Assembly (NCBI RefSeq): GCF_900101335.1 | Contig: NZ_FNKA01000002.1 | Coordinates: forward strand, 620,001-684,000 | Source: Quadrisphaera sp. DSM 44207 | Lineage (GTDB): Bacteria; Actinomycetota; Actinomycetes; Actinomycetales; Quadrisphaeraceae | Length of the DNA: 64,000 nt | Reading direction: 5' to 3' | Shown: positions 1-5,532 of the stretch, piece by piece | How positions within the stretch are numbered: the first letter of the stretch is position 1 | Layout of the letters: each line of letters begins with the position of its first letter | Made by a program: the position numbers and the translations under genes | Notes under the pieces: model-generated | Told to the model about the DNA's origin: nothing | Seen by the model: only the letters and a program-made list of their open reading frames with translations | Database searches by the model: none

Positions 1-358
1 TGGCGCTGGAGCCGCGGATGCAGAAGCCGTCCGTGACCGGCTTGTACTCGATCTTGTTGCCGTTGGTCAGCTTGCCCAGCCCGACGAGGACGGTCTGGCC
101 CGTCGCGGAGACGTCGACGTAAGCGGAACCCGACGTGACCGGGTAGCTCTGCGAGTCGACGAAGGCGGTCTCGACCGTCGTCGCCACCGTGCGGATGTCC
201 GACTTGATGCTGGAGTCGACGGCCTTCTGGCGCTGGTTGAGGAAGACCGGGACGGCGATCGCGGCGAGGATGCCGATGATGATCATGACGACGAGGAGCT
301 CGATCAGGGTGAAGCCCTGGTCCTTCTCCTCCATGGACGTGCGGACGCGAGCGAGCAC
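1..358 (-). CDS. Type IV pilin (prepilin), 3' end beyond window
   Basis: Structural subunit of a type IV pilus or pseudopilus, made as a prepilin with an N-methylation/cleavage site. The reverse strand reads VLARVRTSMEEKDQG, then FTLIELLVVMIIIGILAAIA. That is the class III signal: Gly before Phe, Glu at mature position 5, and a roughly 20-residue hydrophobic helix. The globular part begins VFLNQRQKAVDSS and continues to the window edge, so the C-terminus is missing. The GTG at 358 is chosen because AGGGGAG lies 6 bases upstream; an in-frame ATG at 334 would still keep a short leader. It lies downstream of the pilT-pilC-HDOD operon but has its own promoter-like element at 420-445. The family and processing motif are certain; whether it is the major or a minor pilin cannot be told. 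Confidence 0.93.
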   Translation of the reverse strand, partial: MLARVRTSMEEKDQGFTLIELLVVMIIIGILAAIAVPVFLNQRQKAVDSSIKSDIRTVATTVETAFVDSQSYPVTSGSAYVDVSATGQTVLVGLGKLTNGNKIEYKPVTDGFCIRGSSA

Positions 359-419: not shown

Positions 420-445
420 ATCGGAACGGCGCGGTGGACCTTGAG
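420..445 (-). promoter_or_regulatory. WhiG/FliA-like promoter of the pilin gene
   Basis: Read on the minus strand, CTCAAG (445-440) is followed after 14 bases by TCCGAT (425-420), about 60 bases before the pilin start. It is the weakest of four such elements in this cluster: one base differs in the -10 box and the spacer is one base short. It resembles the sigma-28-type actinobacterial motif CTCA(A/C)-N15/16-GCCGAA and WhiG TAAA-N15-GCCGATAA, both recalled rather than searched. Confidence 0.5.
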
Positions 446-518
446 CCGCGACCCGCCCGGCCGGCTAGCGCTCACCCGATCGGCGCAGGCGCCGAGCCGA
501 GGTGCCGGGCCGGACGCC

Positions 519-1337
519 TCACCACTGCGAGTCAGCGATCCCGTCCCGGATCCGCGGCAGCAGCGCCGCCAGGCGCTCGTCCGGCACCGCTCCCGCGGAC
601 ACGGCCACCACGGACGGCGGCGCCGCGGCGGCGTCGAGCAGCCCGCCGGCGATCGCGGTGCCGGTGCGCAGGCACAGCGCCCACGGCGAGGCGCCCGGGA
701 CGTCGCGGTCGACCTCGTGCAGGGCCCGGGCCATCTCGCGCGGGAACGTCCACGCCGACAGCGCCGCCGCGGAGACCTCGGTGTGCCGGACGCCGTACCG
801 CTCGGCCTCGGCGGCCAGCAGCTGCGCGCGGCCGCCGTCGGCGACCTCCGGCAGCGCCAGCAGCTCGGGGTAGCCCTCGGGGTCGTGCTGGCACAGCACC
901 GCCTGCCCGATGGAGGAGAGCAGGCCGAGGCAGAAGGACTCCGCGGTCGGCAGGCCGAAGCAGCCGGCGAGCTCGCCGCACGCGACGGCGGTGGTCTTCG
1001 ACCGCGTCCAGAAGTCCGCGGGCAGCACCGACTCGTCGTCCGCGCCCGCCGCCGCGACCGCGGCCATCGTGCGCACGGTGGTGAAGCCCACGACCGTGAC
1101 GGAGAACGCGACGGTGCGCACCCTGCCGCCGAGGCCGTAGTAGGCGCTGTTGGCCAGGCGCATGAGGCGCGCCGACAGCGTGGCGTCGGCCACGAGGACG
1201 TCGGCCAGCTCCTTCGCGCCCACGCCGTCGTCGTCCGTCATGGCCACGACGCGGGCCGCCACGGGGCGGCGCGCCGCCAGGGAGTCGACGGTGCCCAGCA
1301 GCTCGTCCAGCGCCGCTCCCGCAGCGGTGCGGGTCAC
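519..1337 (-). CDS. HDOD-domain signalling protein
   Basis: A 272-residue HDOD protein, a degenerate HD-fold domain used in bacterial signalling and motility control without known catalysis. The signature is clear: TLSARLMRLANSAYYG around residues 48-63, followed by VRTVAFSVTVVGFTTVRTM, the helix that in HDOD families carries the conserved turn. A long alpha-helical C-terminal half follows. The GTG start overlaps the pilC stop (GTGA), so it is translationally coupled to the pilus assembly genes. That points to a role in pilus function or its regulation. No output domain (GGDEF, EAL, kinase) is fused to it. The partner is unknown. Confidence 0.85.
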   Translation of the reverse strand: MTRTAAGAALDELLGTVDSLAARRPVAARVVAMTDDDGVGAKELADVLVADATLSARLMRLANSAYYGLGGRVRTVAFSVTVVGFTTVRTMAAVAAAGADDESVLPADFWTRSKTTAVACGELAGCFGLPTAESFCLGLLSSIGQAVLCQHDPEGYPELLALPEVADGGRAQLLAAEAERYGVRHTEVSAAALSAWTFPREMARALHEVDRDVPGASPWALCLRTGTAIAGGLLDAAAAPPSVVAVSAGAVPDERLAALLPRIRDGIADSQW

Positions 1338-2554
1338 TGGATCTGGTCGAAGATGGTGAAGATCGGCAGGTACATCGCGATGATCATCCCGCCGACGACG
1401 GCGCCCAGGACGGCGATCATGATCGGCTCGATGAGGCTCGTCAGCGCCTCGGTCGTCGCCTCGACCTCGGCGTCGTAGAAGTCGGCGACCTTCTCCAGCA
1501 TGGTGTCGGTGGCCCCGGTGTCCTCGCCGACGGCGAGCATCTGCACGACCATCGGGGGGAAGACCCCGTGCCGGGCCAGCGGCGCGGCCATCGACTCGCC
1601 GCGGCGCACGCTGTCCTGCACGTCGCGGGCGGCCCGCTCGAGCACGAGGTTGCCGGCGGTGCCGCCCACGATGTCCAGGCTCTGCAGGATCGGCACCCCC
1701 GAGCGGATCATGGTGCCGAGGTTGCGGCAGAACCGGGCGACGGCGACCTTGCGGAACAGCGGCCCGAAGACCGGCACGCGCAGCACGAGCGGGTCGACGA
1801 CCGAGCGCACGCGGTGGTGGTGGCGCACCCGCCGCCAGACCACCAGCCCGACGGCGGCGAGGACGACGAGCAGGGGCGCGCCGACCTTCATCAGGCCCGA
1901 GAGCCACACCAGCAGGCGCGTCGGCGCCGGCAGCTCTCCGCCGAGCGAGGCGAACATCGAGGCGAAGATCGGGACGATGAACAGCAGCATCCCGACCACG
2001 GCGAGCAGGGCGATGACGAAGACGACGACCGGGTAGGTCATCGCCGACTTCACCTTCCCGCGCAGCTTGACCTCGGCCTCGAAGTTGGCGGCCACCGACT
2101 GCAGCGTGGAGTCCAGGAACCCGCCGACCTCGCCGGCGCGGCACATGTTCATCATCAGCGGCGGGAAGACGCGGGGGTGCTTGGCCAGGGCGACGGACAG
2201 GGACTGCCCGGTCTCGACGTCCTGGCGGACGCTGGCGAGCACCCCGGCGAGGGCCTTGTTCTCGGTCTGCGCGGCGAGGATGGTCAGCGCGCGCAGCAGC
2301 GACAGCCCCGAGTCGATCATCGTGGCGAACTGCCGCGACATCACCGCGAGGTCCTTGAGGGAGACCGAGCGGCCGAAGGGCAGGGTGATCTCGCGGTTGA
2401 GGCCCGTGCCGGCCACCGCCACCGACAGCGGGGCGTGGCCGAGCTGGCGCAGGCGGGCGACGAGCGCGGCCTGGTCGGTGGCCTCCATGCGACCGGTGAC
2501 GACCTTGCCGGCGCGGTCGCGCACGGTGTACTCGAACGTCGTGGTGGTGGCCAT
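1334..2554 (-). CDS. pilC: Type IV pilus inner-membrane platform protein PilC
   Basis: Polytopic platform protein that couples the PilB/PilT motors to pilin assembly. The 406-residue protein has the GspF/PilC layout: a soluble N-terminus (FEYTVRDRAGKVVTGRMEA), a first T2SSF domain beginning FATMIDSGLSLLRAL around residue 75, a membrane helix near 175-200 (VVVFVIALLAVVGMLLFIVP), another near 225-245, a second T2SSF domain with FCRNLGTMIRSGVPILQSL, and a C-terminal membrane helix (PIMIAVLGAVVGGMIIAMYL). The ATG at 2554 lies 26 bases after the pilT stop, so the genes should share a transcript. Length is normal for the family. Assignment to pilus rather than type II secretion rests on the neighbouring pilT. 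Confidence 0.93.
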   Translation of the reverse strand: MATTTTFEYTVRDRAGKVVTGRMEATDQAALVARLRQLGHAPLSVAVAGTGLNREITLPFGRSVSLKDLAVMSRQFATMIDSGLSLLRALTILAAQTENKALAGVLASVRQDVETGQSLSVALAKHPRVFPPLMMNMCRAGEVGGFLDSTLQSVAANFEAEVKLRGKVKSAMTYPVVVFVIALLAVVGMLLFIVPIFASMFASLGGELPAPTRLLVWLSGLMKVGAPLLVVLAAVGLVVWRRVRHHHRVRSVVDPLVLRVPVFGPLFRKVAVARFCRNLGTMIRSGVPILQSLDIVGGTAGNLVLERAARDVQDSVRRGESMAAPLARHGVFPPMVVQMLAVGEDTGATDTMLEKVADFYDAEVEATTEALTSLIEPIMIAVLGAVVGGMIIAMYLPIFTIFDQIQ

Positions 2555-2580
2555 GCGTGCCGTCCTCTCCCGCGCCCTGC

Positions 2581-3840
2581 TCAGGACCGGCCGGTCATGC
2601 GGGTGAAGTCCTCGACGTGGTGGCACTTCTCGAGGCCGTGGGCGGGCGAGATCCGCCCCGTGCGCACGAGGTCGGCCAGGTGCTGGTCGAGGGTGTGCAT
2701 GCCGTGCTGGGCCCCGGCCTGCATCGCCGAGTAGATCTGGTGGGTCTTGCCCTCGCGGATGAGGTTGCGGATCGCGGGGGTGGCGACCATGACCTCGGTG
2801 GCGACCACGCGCCCGGAGCCGTCGGAGGTCTTGCACAGCGTCTGGCTGACGACGCCCTGGATCGCGCCGGCCAGCTGCACGCGCACCTGCTCCTGCTGCT
2901 CGGGCGGGAAGACGTCGATGACGCGGTCGACGGTCTGCGCGGCGTCCTGCGTGTGCAGCGTCGCGAAGACCAGGTGGCCGGTCTCGGCGGCGGTCAGGGC
3001 CACCGACATCGTCTCCAGGTCGCGCAGCTCGCCGACGAGGATGATGTCCGGGTCCTGGCGCAGCACGTGCTTCAGAGCGCTGGCGAAGGACTTCGTGTCC
3101 TCCCCCACCTCGCGCTGGTTGACCAGGCACGACTTGTGGCGGTGGAGGAACTCGATCGGGTCCTCCACGGTCATGATGTGGTCGCGGCGGGTGCGGTTGG
3201 CCAGGTCGACCAGGGCGGCCAGCGTCGTGGACTTGCCCGAGCCGGTCGGTCCGGTCACGAGCACGAGCCCGCGCGGCAGCCCCGCGAAGGCGGCGACGGC
3301 GCCGGGCACGCCGAGCTCCTCCAGCGGCTTGATCTCGAAGGGGATCACGCGGAAGGCGGCGCCGACGGACTCGCGCTGGCGGTAGAGGTTGACGCGGAAG
3401 CGGGCCCGGCCCGGCAGGGCGAAGGCGAAGTCGAGCTCGAGGGCGTCCTCGAACCGCTCCCGCTGCTTCTGGGTGAGCATCGCGAACAGCACGCGCTGCA
3501 GCACGGGAGCCGTCAGCGGCGGGTGGCCGGGCAGCGTCGTCAGCTCGCCGTTCAGGCGCACGGTCGGCGGCGCGCCGGTGGTCAGGTGCAGGTCGGAGGC
3601 GCCGGCGTCCAGCATCTGCGCGAGGACCCCGGGCAGGTCGACGTCGTCCGCCTGCACGCGCTGCTCGGTCGTGGCGCGGGCGTAGGCGTCGGCCGGCGCC
3701 GCGGGCGCCGGCTGCGCGAGCACGGGCGCGAGCACGGGCGCGAGCACGGGCGCGAGGCCGGGCTGGTGCGGCACGGGCAGGGGCGCCAGCGGAACGGACG
3801 GCACGCCGCTCGGGCGCGCGTGCTCACCTCGGTGGTCCAC
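2581..3840 (-). CDS. pilT: Pilus retraction ATPase PilT
   Basis: Hexameric ATPase that depolymerises type IV pili and powers twitching. In the 419-residue protein an Ala/Pro-rich N-terminal tail of about 70 residues precedes the PilT core. That core has a PAS-like N-domain (DLHLTTGAPPTVRLNGEL), Walker A GPTGSGKST near residue 200, the Asp box (VEDPIEFLHRHKSCLVNQREVG), Walker B (DPDIILVGELRD) and the His box (TGHLVFATLHTQDAAQTVDR). GELRD instead of GEMRD is a minor variant. The GTG start has GGAGGAGG 5 bases upstream. Three exact 12-base repeats encode an LAPV-type stretch in the tail. No pilB-type assembly ATPase is visible in the window. A sigma-28-like promoter lies 45 bases upstream. Confidence 0.95.
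   Translation of the reverse strand: MDHRGEHARPSGVPSVPLAPLPVPHQPGLAPVLAPVLAPVLAQPAPAAPADAYARATTEQRVQADDVDLPGVLAQMLDAGASDLHLTTGAPPTVRLNGELTTLPGHPPLTAPVLQRVLFAMLTQKQRERFEDALELDFAFALPGRARFRVNLYRQRESVGAAFRVIPFEIKPLEELGVPGAVAAFAGLPRGLVLVTGPTGSGKSTTLAALVDLANRTRRDHIMTVEDPIEFLHRHKSCLVNQREVGEDTKSFASALKHVLRQDPDIILVGELRDLETMSVALTAAETGHLVFATLHTQDAAQTVDRVIDVFPPEQQEQVRVQLAGAIQGVVSQTLCKTSDGSGRVVATEVMVATPAIRNLIREGKTHQIYSAMQAGAQHGMHTLDQHLADLVRTGRISPAHGLEKCHHVEDFTRMTGRS
3721..3756. repeat. 12-bp tandem repeat, 3 copies, in pilT
   Basis: Three exact copies of cacgggcgcgag sit inside the N-terminal tail of PilT, where the minus-strand product reads as repeated LAPV. Being in frame, copy-number changes would lengthen or shorten the tail by four residues. 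Confidence 0.85.
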
Positions 3841-3884
3841 CGGTGCCTCCTCCAGCGGAGGGCGTTCGCCTCCGACGGGTCTTC

Positions 3885-3911
3885 ATCGGCCGGTAGCGGG
3901 CCGGTCTTGAG
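3885..3911 (-). promoter_or_regulatory. WhiG/FliA-like promoter of pilT-pilC-HDOD
   Basis: Minus-strand CTCAAG (3911-3906), a 15-base spacer, then GCCGAT followed by GAAG (3890-3885). The -10 box ends 45 bases before the pilT GTG, leaving room for a leader with the strong Shine-Dalgarno. Identical boxes and spacing recur upstream of the DUF1059 gene and, with one change, the EAL gene. Confidence 0.65.
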
Positions 3912-3914
3912 AGC

Positions 3915-3953
3915 GCGACGGCTCCGGTCCCCTGGAGGGGCCGGAGCCGTCGC
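3915..3953 (-). terminator. Hairpin terminator after the DUF1059 gene
   Basis: A 13-base perfect stem (gcgacggctccgg / ccggagccgtcgc at 3915-3927 and 3941-3953), extended by an inner cccc-gggg stem. It lies 55 bases downstream of the DUF1059 stop and directly upstream of the pilT -35 box. There is no T-run, as is usual in such GC-rich genomes. Confidence 0.7.
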
Positions 3954-4007
3954 GGGCGCTGAGCGCTGCAGGTGCTGCGGATGGTGCGGGTGCTGCGGGT
4001 GCTGCGC

Positions 4008-4190
4008 TCAGGCGGGGCTGGCGGTGCGGATGCGCGCGCGCACGGCGCCCAGCAGCTCCGGGCTGACCTCGGGAACGCCGTGCGCCTCGGCGGCGTGGGC
4101 ACCGACGCGCAGGAGGAGGAGCTCCTCGGTCGGCTCGGCGAACGCGGCGTCGCAGCCGGGGACGACGTCCCCGCAGGCGAACAGCTTCAT
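4008..4190 (-). CDS. DUF1059 small protein
   Basis: A 60-residue soluble protein beginning MKLFACGDVVPGCDAAF, the characteristic start of the DUF1059 family, with Cys at positions 6 and 13. A His-containing helix (VGAHAAEAHGV) occupies the middle. The function of the family is not established. The ATG at 4190 has GGAGGAGG 6 bases upstream. The gene stands alone between the EAL gene and pilT, but its promoter motif matches that of its motility neighbours, suggesting co-regulation. Family membership is recalled from the N-terminal motif. Confidence 0.85.
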   Translation of the reverse strand: MKLFACGDVVPGCDAAFAEPTEELLLLRVGAHAAEAHGVPEVSPELLGAVRARIRTASPA

Positions 4191-4237
4191 CGGTTCCTCC
4201 TCCTGGCCCGGACGCGGCGTCCGGCTCCCGGCGGTGG

Positions 4238-4264
4238 ATCGGCCGGGCCGCGCCCGGGCTTGAG
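4238..4264 (-). promoter_or_regulatory. WhiG/FliA-like promoter of the DUF1059 gene
   Basis: Minus-strand CTCAAG (4264-4259), 15-base spacer, GCCGAT (4243-4238), ending 47 bases before the ATG. Both hexamers and the spacing are the same as at pilT. Confidence 0.65.
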
Positions 4265-4329
4265 CGCCGCTGCGCCGAGCGGGTCAGCGGGCGCGCGGGC
4301 GTGCGGGCGCGTGGGCGTGCGGGTGCGGC

Positions 4330-5472
4330 TCAGGCCTGGCCCGTGCGGGCGAGGTGGAGGACGACGTCCTCCATGAGCACGACGCCGGTGCACAGCCCGC
4401 GCGGGTCGACGACGACCACGGGGTCGAAGCGCTGCTCCGGGCGGCGGCTCATGGCCCGGCGGGCCACCTCGGTGACCGGCTCGGAGGGGTGGCAGCGCAG
4501 GGTGACGAACACGCGGCGCGCGCCGCCGGGGTGCTGCAGCAGCACCTGGGCGGGTGAGCCGTCGGTGTGCACCAGCACGGTCGCCTCCGCCGCCGCGTCG
4601 GCGGCGGGCGGCGAGGCGAGCGGGGCCTGCGCGACCGGGCGCACCAGCGGCGCGAGCGCGTCCTGCAGGACGACGCGATCGGCCAGCTCCCGCACGCGCG
4701 CGCGCACCGCCGGGTCGAGGGCGGCCATGACGGGGGCCGGGCGCCCGAGCAGGTAGCCCTGCGCGAGCGGGATGCCGAGGCCGACGAGGGCGGTCAGCTC
4801 GCCCTCGGTCTCGACGCCCTCGGCGAGCAGCCAGGCGTCGAGGCGGCCCGCGTAGCTGCCGAGCAGCTCGACCAGGGCCGCCTTGACCGGGTCGGTGTCG
4901 AGGGAGGAGACCAGCGCCCGGTCGACCTTGACGATGTCGGGGCGCAGCTGCGCCAGCTGCAGCAGGCCCGAGTAGCCGGTGCCCGCGTCGTCGAGGGCCA
5001 CCATGGCGCCGAGCTCGCGCACGCGGGCGACGCCCTCGCGCACCCGCGGCAGGTCGGTGTACGGCACGTGCTCGGTCAGCTCGACCACGAGGCGCTGCAG
5101 CCCGCCGCGGCGGGCGGCGAGGTCCTCGACCAGCTGGCGCCAGCCGTCCTCGACCCACCGCTCGGGCCCGGTGTTGACGGTCAGGAACGTCGAGCCGGGC
5201 AGGACGTCGAGCAGCTGCACGGCGCGCTCGAGCACGACGGCGTCGAGCGCGCCGCCGAGGCCGCCGGCCTCCGCGGCGGCGAAGACGGCGTCCGGGGGCG
5301 GGGCGTCGGGCCCGAAGCGCGAGAGCACCTCGTACCCGGCGACGGCGCCGCGGGCGAGGTCGGCGATGGGCTGCACGTGCACGCCGAGGCACCGGGGGTG
5401 CTCCAGGACGCGCGCGACGACGTCGAGCGGGTCCGCGGTGCGGCGGGGCCTGACCTGGCGCACGGCGCCCAC
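4330..5472 (-). CDS. EAL-domain cyclic-di-GMP phosphodiesterase
   Basis: Probable enzyme hydrolysing the second messenger c-di-GMP. The EAL core carries the expected residues: YEVLSRF (EVL for EAL), VNTGP (Asn), LVVELTEH (Glu), ALDDAGTGYSGL (Asp-Asp), IVKVDRALV (Lys), LAEGVE (Glu) and QGYLLGRP (Gln). The metal ligands and catalytic Lys therefore look intact. The last 85 residues (from about VLVHTDGSPAQ to VVVVDPRGLCTGVVLMEDV) resemble a CBS-like module. The frame is open to a GTG at 5496, but that codon lies only 9 bases below the -10 box. The GTG at 5472, with GGAG 8 bases upstream, is preferred; a leaderless start at 5496 is possible. A role in pilus-based motility is inferred from position and promoter. 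Confidence 0.88.
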   Translation of the reverse strand: MGAVRQVRPRRTADPLDVVARVLEHPRCLGVHVQPIADLARGAVAGYEVLSRFGPDAPPPDAVFAAAEAGGLGGALDAVVLERAVQLLDVLPGSTFLTVNTGPERWVEDGWRQLVEDLAARRGGLQRLVVELTEHVPYTDLPRVREGVARVRELGAMVALDDAGTGYSGLLQLAQLRPDIVKVDRALVSSLDTDPVKAALVELLGSYAGRLDAWLLAEGVETEGELTALVGLGIPLAQGYLLGRPAPVMAALDPAVRARVRELADRVVLQDALAPLVRPVAQAPLASPPAADAAAEATVLVHTDGSPAQVLLQHPGGARRVFVTLRCHPSEPVTEVARRAMSRRPEQRFDPVVVVDPRGLCTGVVLMEDVVLHLARTGQA

Positions 5473-5505
5473 CCCCTCCCGCTCCAGCCGGTGCACGGTG
5501 GTGGT

Positions 5506-5532
5506 GTCGGCAGGCGGGCCCGGGCCCTTGAG
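5506..5532 (-). promoter_or_regulatory. WhiG/FliA-like promoter of the EAL gene
   Basis: Minus-strand CTCAAG (5532-5527), 15-base spacer, GCCGAC (5511-5506). The site differs from the pilT and DUF1059 promoters by one base. Transcription would begin near 5500, almost at the most upstream GTG (5496). Confidence 0.6.

Follow-up and report, generated by a model that had tools for sequence, protein, structure and literature searches.

Predicted WhiG-type promoters shared by type IV pilus, cyclic di-GMP, flagellar, and chemotaxis genes in Quadrisphaera sp. DSM 44207

In the genome of the actinobacterium Quadrisphaera sp. DSM 44207, four minus-strand sites with the same pair of boxes, CTCAAG and (G/T)CCGA(T/C), stand in front of genes for a type IV pilin, the pilus ATPase PilT, a small DUF1059 protein, and an EAL-domain protein, a predicted phosphodiesterase (PDE) of cyclic di-GMP (c-di-GMP). 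All four lie within a 64,000-nucleotide stretch of contig NZ_FNKA01000002.1 (positions 620,001 to 684,000), referred to below as the window. The locus raises the question of whether these sites are promoters and, if so, which sigma factor reads them and which genes they join. An initial annotation had taken them for sigma-28-type promoters of a motile-phase regulon, with the DUF1059 protein as a candidate motility component. We consider them promoters of the FliA/WhiG family and the pilus promoters most likely to be read by WhiG under the control of the anti-sigma factor RsiG and c-di-GMP, a reading to which we assign a probability of about three in four.

Paired boxes in the genome and in the pilus loci of relatives

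The four sites lie where the initial annotation had placed them (Table 1), and its statement that the window holds no other also stands: a search of the 64 kb with CTCAAG-N13-17-KCCGAY returned exactly 4 matches, against a mean of 0.15 in dinucleotide shuffles, none of 100 of which reached 4. CTCAAG by itself occurs 12 times in the window, close to the chance number (mean, 9.5), so that the information resides in the paired boxes. Promoters of the FliA/WhiG family classically carry the -35 element TAAA at a fixed spacing. The sites described here have CTCAAG, not TAAA; TCAA and TAAA are one base apart. At -10, all four have the GCCGAT core or a one-base variant of it, and this core is part of the flagellar -10 consensus GCCGATAA (PMC8325347). 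The start codon lies 61 nt past the -10 hexamer in the pilin gene (GTG 358), 44 nt past it in pilT, and 47 nt past it in the DUF1059 gene. The EAL gene has one GTG (5496) 9 nt past the hexamer and an alternative GTG (5463) at 42 nt; from the former, a leaderless transcript is possible. Start codons 9 to 10 nt past the -10 hexamer recur in three genes with sites, which encode a methyl-accepting chemotaxis protein (MCP; L001), a GGDEF protein (L003), and the EAL protein, suggesting leaderless transcripts.

A genome-wide search, which the initial annotation had named as the trial of its proposal, did not find the motif scattered at random. In the 3.2-Mb genome, CTCAAG-N14-16-KCCGAY has 23 matches, compared to 5 for the reversed pattern, and CTCAAG-N15-GCCGAT with up to one mismatch has 47 (11 of them exact), compared to 2. 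Pilus-cluster, flagellar, chemotaxis-receptor, or c-di-GMP genes follow 16 of the 23 exact sites. Six of these are in a single pilus cluster, before the pilM, pseudopilin, pilin, pilT, DUF1059, and EAL genes, those of the pseudopilin gene (C2:619804) and pilM (C2:615207) lying past the left edge of the window and absent from the initial annotation. Four precede MCP genes, three precede genes with a GGDEF domain (GGDEF, GGDEF-EAL, and GAF-GGDEF, one of each), and the last three stand before flhA, flgB, and a gene for a sigma-28 factor. WhiG-type sites on pilus operons and on genes of c-di-GMP turnover, by diguanylate cyclase (DGC) or PDE, were thus found before pilM, the pseudopilin gene, the pilin gene, pilT, the EAL gene, and the three GGDEF-containing genes; a one-mismatch site stands before a fourth GGDEF gene, located in the pilus/aro region. 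Outside the 16, one site precedes a gene for a VanY-type peptidase (L008), and six were dropped as uncertain: two have no clear downstream gene (L002 and L013), two precede a gene whose product has no Pfam match (L006 and L023), and two fall within longer coding-like frames (L007 and L022). The placement of the genome sites is the picture of a sigma-28 regulon.

Counterparts in other genomes were sought in loci fetched with PilT, which is up to 83% identical to its relatives among the best 80 of 409 that were kept. These come from Kineosporia, Kineococcus, Cellulomonas, and Sanguibacter and from Frankiales-type and other metagenome-assembled genomes (MAGs). Each locus extends at most 6 kb on either side of pilT, several being ended by contig ends, and an absence refers to that stretch; in tblastn searches, pilT and pilC were matched in all 80. 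The loci were scanned with a weight matrix built from 17 of the Quadrisphaera sites (L006 and L008 included, L003 not). At a threshold of 12 bits, 45 of the 80 loci had a site in the 450 bp that precede the pilT match, none had one there on the antisense strand, and 5 had one inside pilT; with the threshold at 8 bits, the numbers were 46, 4, and 13, respectively (in 6 of the 80 loci, the contig supplied less than 200 bp of that region). The loci in full (908,502 bases) held 142 sense sites of at least 17 bits compared to 1 antisense site; such sense sites were present in 73 of the 80 loci, and Markov shuffling of the sense sequence, done three times, yielded 2, 3, and 0 sites. The spacing was N15 in 129 of the 142 sites, and the base frequencies at -10, which are in part imposed by the matrix, were G.86, C.89, C 1.0, G 1.0, A.99, and T.92, with the AA extension not kept. 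The matrix does not impose the strand bias or the placement close to the pilT and pilin genes, and these constitute the independent evidence. We regard the sites as a predicted promoter set that is real and widely recurrent.

Two explanations that do without a sigma factor bear on these counts. The paired boxes might be chance matches in a GC-rich genome, given a -10 box that is itself GC-rich and at least two of the 23 exact sites (L007 and L022) within coding-like frames; this is countered by the window shuffles, the reversed pattern, the antisense control, and the Markov shuffles, and we give it practically no weight. As an explanation of the set, chance was rejected on the first three of these. 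Alternatively, the boxes might be operators of a DNA-binding regulator, for which sequence by itself leaves some room. The match of GCCGAT to the flagellar -10 core, the near-fixed spacing, the strong one-directionality of the sites, and the leaderless-like position of the start codon in three genes all argue against operators, which appear very improbable.

Sigma factors and RsiG

The Quadrisphaera genome encodes WhiG, an RsiG with twin motifs, and a separate flagellar-type sigma factor. Among seven matches to TIGR02479 (cut-off, 189.6 bits), WhiG (C3:642317) scored 277.7 bits, above the cut-off, and it matched Streptomyces venezuelae WhiG from the RsiG-WhiG crystal structure with an E value of 1.3e-112. 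A second, flagellar-type sigma-28 (C1:1105993-1106637) scored 165.8 bits, under the cut-off, and in a PDB sequence search matched WhiG and FliA structures about equally; the remaining five matches scored no more than 113.1 bits. A DNA-pattern search for the c-di-GMP motif of RsiG gave three matches in the genome, one of which is ETDLSYTRRLLQGRLD. The RsiG protein (L119:1129-1677; 183 amino acids) scored 58.1 bits to the Pfam RsiG family (cut-off, 27) and matched the S. venezuelae RsiG structure (PDB 6pfj) with an E value of 4.6e-11. Its first E(X)3S(X)2R(X)3Q(X)3D motif is complete, and E, S, R, and Q are present in both motifs; in an alignment with 10 homologues, no row departs from these four residues in the second motif. 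The D that ends this motif is replaced by A in Quadrisphaera and by S in its closest relative (L128), and it is kept in the nine other aligned rows. The closest RsiG (73%) comes from a genome with FlhA whose record is named "Streptomyces sp. NP160" (L068), a genus name that may be wrong.

Sigma factors, FlhA, and RsiG were searched for in 50 of the 80 genomes, including all 7 whose loci lack a site, the other 30 being mostly Cellulomonas; the only RsiG query was the Quadrisphaera protein, by which divergent forms may be missed. A WhiG-class sigma factor of at least 257 bits was found in 45 of the 50 genomes, an FlhA match in 29 (28 near full length and one partial), and a clear RsiG in 32, with one further weak match. 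WhiG is present in 41 of the 43 site-bearing genomes, the exceptions being one MAG and one partial match of 199 bits, versus 4 of the 7 site-less ones (Fisher p = 0.016, with kinship ignored). In three of these four WhiG-bearing genomes, a weaker site of 15.1 to 15.7 bits lies upstream of pilT. No FlhA match was found in 21 of the 50 genomes, of which 17 have pilus sites, and all 17 carry both RsiG and WhiG, the latter at 279 bits or more. The second listed sigma match does not exceed 131 bits in 16 of them (the exception, G026, has 156.4 bits). Since many of the genomes are MAGs, failure to find FlhA in any one of them says little; the pattern across 17 is stronger.

Three of the 17 genomes were searched in full and had 11 exact matches, with 1 in the reversed control. 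Seven of the 11 precede pilM (2), pilin genes (2), pilT, a pilin-like gene, and a Robl_LC7 gene located between aroE and pilT; the pilin-like gene was judged by eye, its only Pfam match being CarboxypepD_reg, which is also present in the Quadrisphaera pseudopilin. The remaining four precede a LuxR-type gene, a 61-codon frame, and a gene whose 109-amino-acid product lacks a Pfam match, or fall within an open frame of 587 codons that may not be coding.

The sigma factor that best tracks the pilus sites in these comparisons is WhiG. An alternative is that the flagellar-type sigma-28 reads all the promoters, those of the pili included, with some other role left to WhiG. Its gene lies some 8 kb away from the site of flgB and has a site of its own 115 bp upstream, the same motif is found on flagellar and MCP genes, and the motility island of Kineococcus radiotolerans contains a FliA homologue (PMC2587704). 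As WhiG is found in every one of the 17 site-bearing genomes with no FlhA match, nearly always with no second listed sigma match above 131 bits, the sites do not need a flagellar FliA, and we consider this alternative improbable. Of the initial proposal of a sigma-28 regulon, the FliA/WhiG type of the sites and their sharing by pilus and c-di-GMP genes with flagellar and MCP genes stand, whereas a purely flagellar sigma-28 does not: pilus sites that track WhiG and occur where FlhA was not detected make that description too narrow.

Both sigma factors might also read the same promoters in an overlapping manner, with no dedicated pilus sigma factor in flagellate members. A single consensus is common to the pilus, flagellar, and MCP sites, WhiG and flagellar sigma factors have a common promoter specificity (PMC8325347), and three FliA-family sigma factors are active in Actinoplanes (PMC13293333). 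Overlap alone leaves the persistence of sites without a FliA-class sigma factor or FlhA unexplained, and it supplements the assignment of the pilus promoters to WhiG more than it contradicts it; it is possible but, on balance, doubtful as the whole account.

Several observations weigh against WhiG as the reader of the pilus promoters and RsiG as its gate, or against the site counts behind that reading. The flagellar-type sigma-28 may be able to read the same promoters, the last D of the second RsiG motif is not kept in Quadrisphaera, and the weight-matrix scan found nothing that reached 9 bits at the whiG and rsiG loci or at that of the presumed pilB (C3:447606). The 80 loci are mutually related, and many are MAGs; the control inside pilT reaches 14.9 bits in five loci; and the training set of the matrix consisted of instances of the motif, which makes the consensus partly circular. 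Four of the seven site-less loci come from genomes with WhiG. In Cellulomonas, Sanguibacter, and related genomes, there are sites and mostly WhiG but no clear RsiG with the Quadrisphaera protein as query, and RsiG gating may therefore not be universal. The loci with WhiG, pilus sites, and no clear RsiG by that query include L049, L050, L056, L059, and others of Cellulomonas, Sanguibacter, and Actinotalea.

The pilus gene cluster and its EAL and DUF1059 genes

The assignment of the pilin, pilC, pilT, DUF1059, and EAL genes in the initial annotation was borne out by Pfam; that annotation had not listed the HDOD-domain gene that separates pilC from the pilin gene (Table 1).

Table 1. Predicted promoters and genes of the pilus cluster in the window
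Feature	Positions	Strand	Pfam match (E value)	Remarks
Type IV pilin gene	1-358	-	N_methyl (7.1e-10)	Continues past left window edge; start GTG 358 or ATG 332
Predicted sigma-28/WhiG-type promoter, upstream of pilin gene	420-445	-		CTCAAG-N14-TCCGAT; weight-matrix score 21.9, the site itself being in the training set
HDOD-domain gene	519-1340	-	HDOD (6.9e-36)	Between pilC and pilin genes; putative start codon
pilC, T2SSF inner-membrane platform protein	1334-2554	-	T2SSF (1.9e-66)
pilT, T2SSE-family pilus ATPase	2581-3840	-	T2SSE (1.6e-45)
Predicted sigma-28/WhiG-type promoter, upstream of pilT	3885-3911	-		CTCAAG-N15-GCCGAT; score 24.1; counterparts before pilT in many relatives
DUF1059 protein gene, 60 amino acids	4008-4190	-	DUF1059 (9.1e-18)	C-X6-C-X18-H-X4-H pattern
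Predicted sigma-28/WhiG-type promoter, upstream of DUF1059 gene	4238-4264	-		CTCAAG-N15-GCCGAT; score 23.5
EAL-domain protein gene, predicted c-di-GMP phosphodiesterase	4330-5496	-	EAL (4.6e-42)	Weak C-terminal CBS match (8e-4), under cut-off
Predicted sigma-28/WhiG-type promoter, upstream of EAL gene	5506-5532	-		CTCAAG-N15-GCCGAC; score 23.7

In Kineosporia sp. R_H_3 (L038), the gene order is aroE, pilB (with MshEN and T2SSE domains), and pilT, and in L068, pilT directly follows aroE. In Quadrisphaera, aroE is followed by the EAL gene, the DUF1059 gene, and pilT, each with its own site; the EAL and DUF1059 genes take the place between aroE and pilT that is held by pilB in Kineosporia sp. R_H_3. 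The presumed pilB of Quadrisphaera, which scores highest to T2SSE among the genes of the genome (C3:447606-448757; 427 bits), lies apart from the pilus cluster, and for lack of a site in its locus it was rejected as a member of the regulon. With positive controls included and E values of up to 1 admitted, tblastn found no match to the EAL or HDOD protein in the 80 pilT loci of relatives. By eye, the EAL protein retains the customary catalytic positions, with EVL replacing EAL, and it is likely to be an active phosphodiesterase.

The DUF1059 gene looks like a local passenger of the regulon. The family (PF06348) was found in 5 of 13 genomes of the bacterial family and in 32 of 197 genomes of the class, Quadrisphaera being included in both sets, and the scan for sites covered the sequence upstream of 37 genes, a set that omits six class-genome matches with no locus and in which the flank of one gene (L152) was lost to a contig end and the wrong stretch was scanned. 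Upstream of three of the 37 genes, a match reached 12 bits or more, namely, at that of the window and at those in L158 and L161 (16.7 bits each), and the latter two matches sit within the preceding coding frame, so that an intergenic site is found only at the gene in the window. In the 80 pilT loci, tblastn gave only three DUF1059 matches, with E values of 0.19 to 0.61, none of them convincing. The suggestion that the protein is a motility component is not upheld as a general one, given that the other 36 scanned genes are without an intergenic site and that the relatives' pilus loci offer no convincing partner; as a conserved member of a motility regulon, DUF1059 was rejected on the same grounds. 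In the literature searched, two papers mention DUF1059 and none pairs it with motility. The C-X6-C-X18-H-X4-H pattern is present in 27 of 30 DUF1059 sequences, that of Quadrisphaera included, and could be a metal site. A single-sequence AlphaFold model of the protein is helical (pLDDT, 84.5; pTM, 0.58), and a PDB sequence search gave only two matches, with E values of 0.42 and 0.83.

Known WhiG switches and the proposed regulation

In Rubrobacter radiotolerans, a WhiG-RsiG-(c-di-GMP) switch controls type IV pili, and 12 of 20 predicted WhiG promoters lie just upstream of mapped transcription starts; three of these 12 belong to the pil cluster and five to DGC or PDE genes (PMC8325347). Quadrisphaera resembles this organism in having WhiG-family promoters before pil operons and DGC/PDE genes and in the presence of both WhiG and RsiG. 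It differs from Rubrobacter in its long, twin-motif RsiG, in the flagellar and MCP genes of the regulon, and in the position of the EAL and DUF1059 genes inside the pilus cluster; moreover, the Rubrobacter promoters are backed by start mapping, whereas those of Quadrisphaera are predicted from sequence.

Pili and flagella of Actinoplanes are transcribed by WhiG-like sigma factors, and the same source describes Actinoplanes as being without RsiG (PMC8325347). The use of one sigma family for both pili and flagella is shared with the zoospore regulon of Actinoplanes missouriensis; the presence of RsiG in Quadrisphaera is a difference. In Streptomyces, the WhiG-RsiG switch governs sporulation (PMC8325347). 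As there, Quadrisphaera has homologues of WhiG and of the twin-motif RsiG, with PDB 6pfj as the best match for both, whereas its sites mark pilus, flagellar, chemotaxis, and c-di-GMP genes. The FliA regulon of Escherichia coli and the SigD regulon of Bacillus subtilis have a -10 element with the GCCGAT core, a -35 element TAAA, and flagellar and MCP genes among their targets. The Quadrisphaera sites share that core and those targets; they differ in having CTCAAG at -35, in the inclusion of pili, and in the occurrence of such sites in relatives with no FlhA match. Motile zoospores are made by Kineococcus and Kineosporia (PMC2587704), and by kinship alone to these genera, as judged from the PilT matches, a zoospore link for Quadrisphaera sp. 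DSM 44207 is a reasonable suggestion.

The regulon is a variant of the WhiG-RsiG control of pili already known in Rubrobacter and of the sigma control of the Actinoplanes type. In a literature search that left most subscription papers outside, no title reported WhiG-type pilus promoters in Kineosporiaceae or Cellulomonadaceae. As far as we have seen, the breadth of the promoter set, its link to a twin-motif RsiG, and the placement of a predicted PDE gene under the same promoter are new.

We propose that the pilus operons, the captured EAL and DUF1059 genes, the flagellar genes, the chemotaxis receptors, and several diguanylate cyclases form one regulon. At high c-di-GMP, RsiG would keep WhiG inactive; a drop in c-di-GMP would release WhiG, and pili would be made. 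The EAL enzyme, expressed from the same promoters, would lower c-di-GMP further in a positive feedback, and the GGDEF genes of the regulon would push it back up. The flagellar-type sigma factor may take part in reading the promoters of the flagellar and MCP genes. The allocation of promoters to sigma factors, the gating by RsiG, and the feedback are most likely as described, by analogy with Rubrobacter and Streptomyces.

More broadly, a c-di-GMP- and RsiG-gated switch for type IV pili, with or without flagella, might be the general and probably older job of WhiG in actinobacteria, with sporulation in Streptomyces as a later reuse and with the Quadrisphaera lineage rewired by the relocation of a phosphodiesterase gene to the pilus cluster and to the control of the same promoter; we see the odds of this view as even. 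If it is true, the WhiG pilus switch would serve surface attachment and dispersal. The promoter code is readable and recurrent across families, and leads to a likely sigma factor, a likely anti-sigma factor, and a list of targets, and the twin-motif RsiG, familiar from sporulation, is suggested to act on a pilus switch as well. Species with no detected flagellar genes would allow the role of WhiG to be tested free of interference from FliA.

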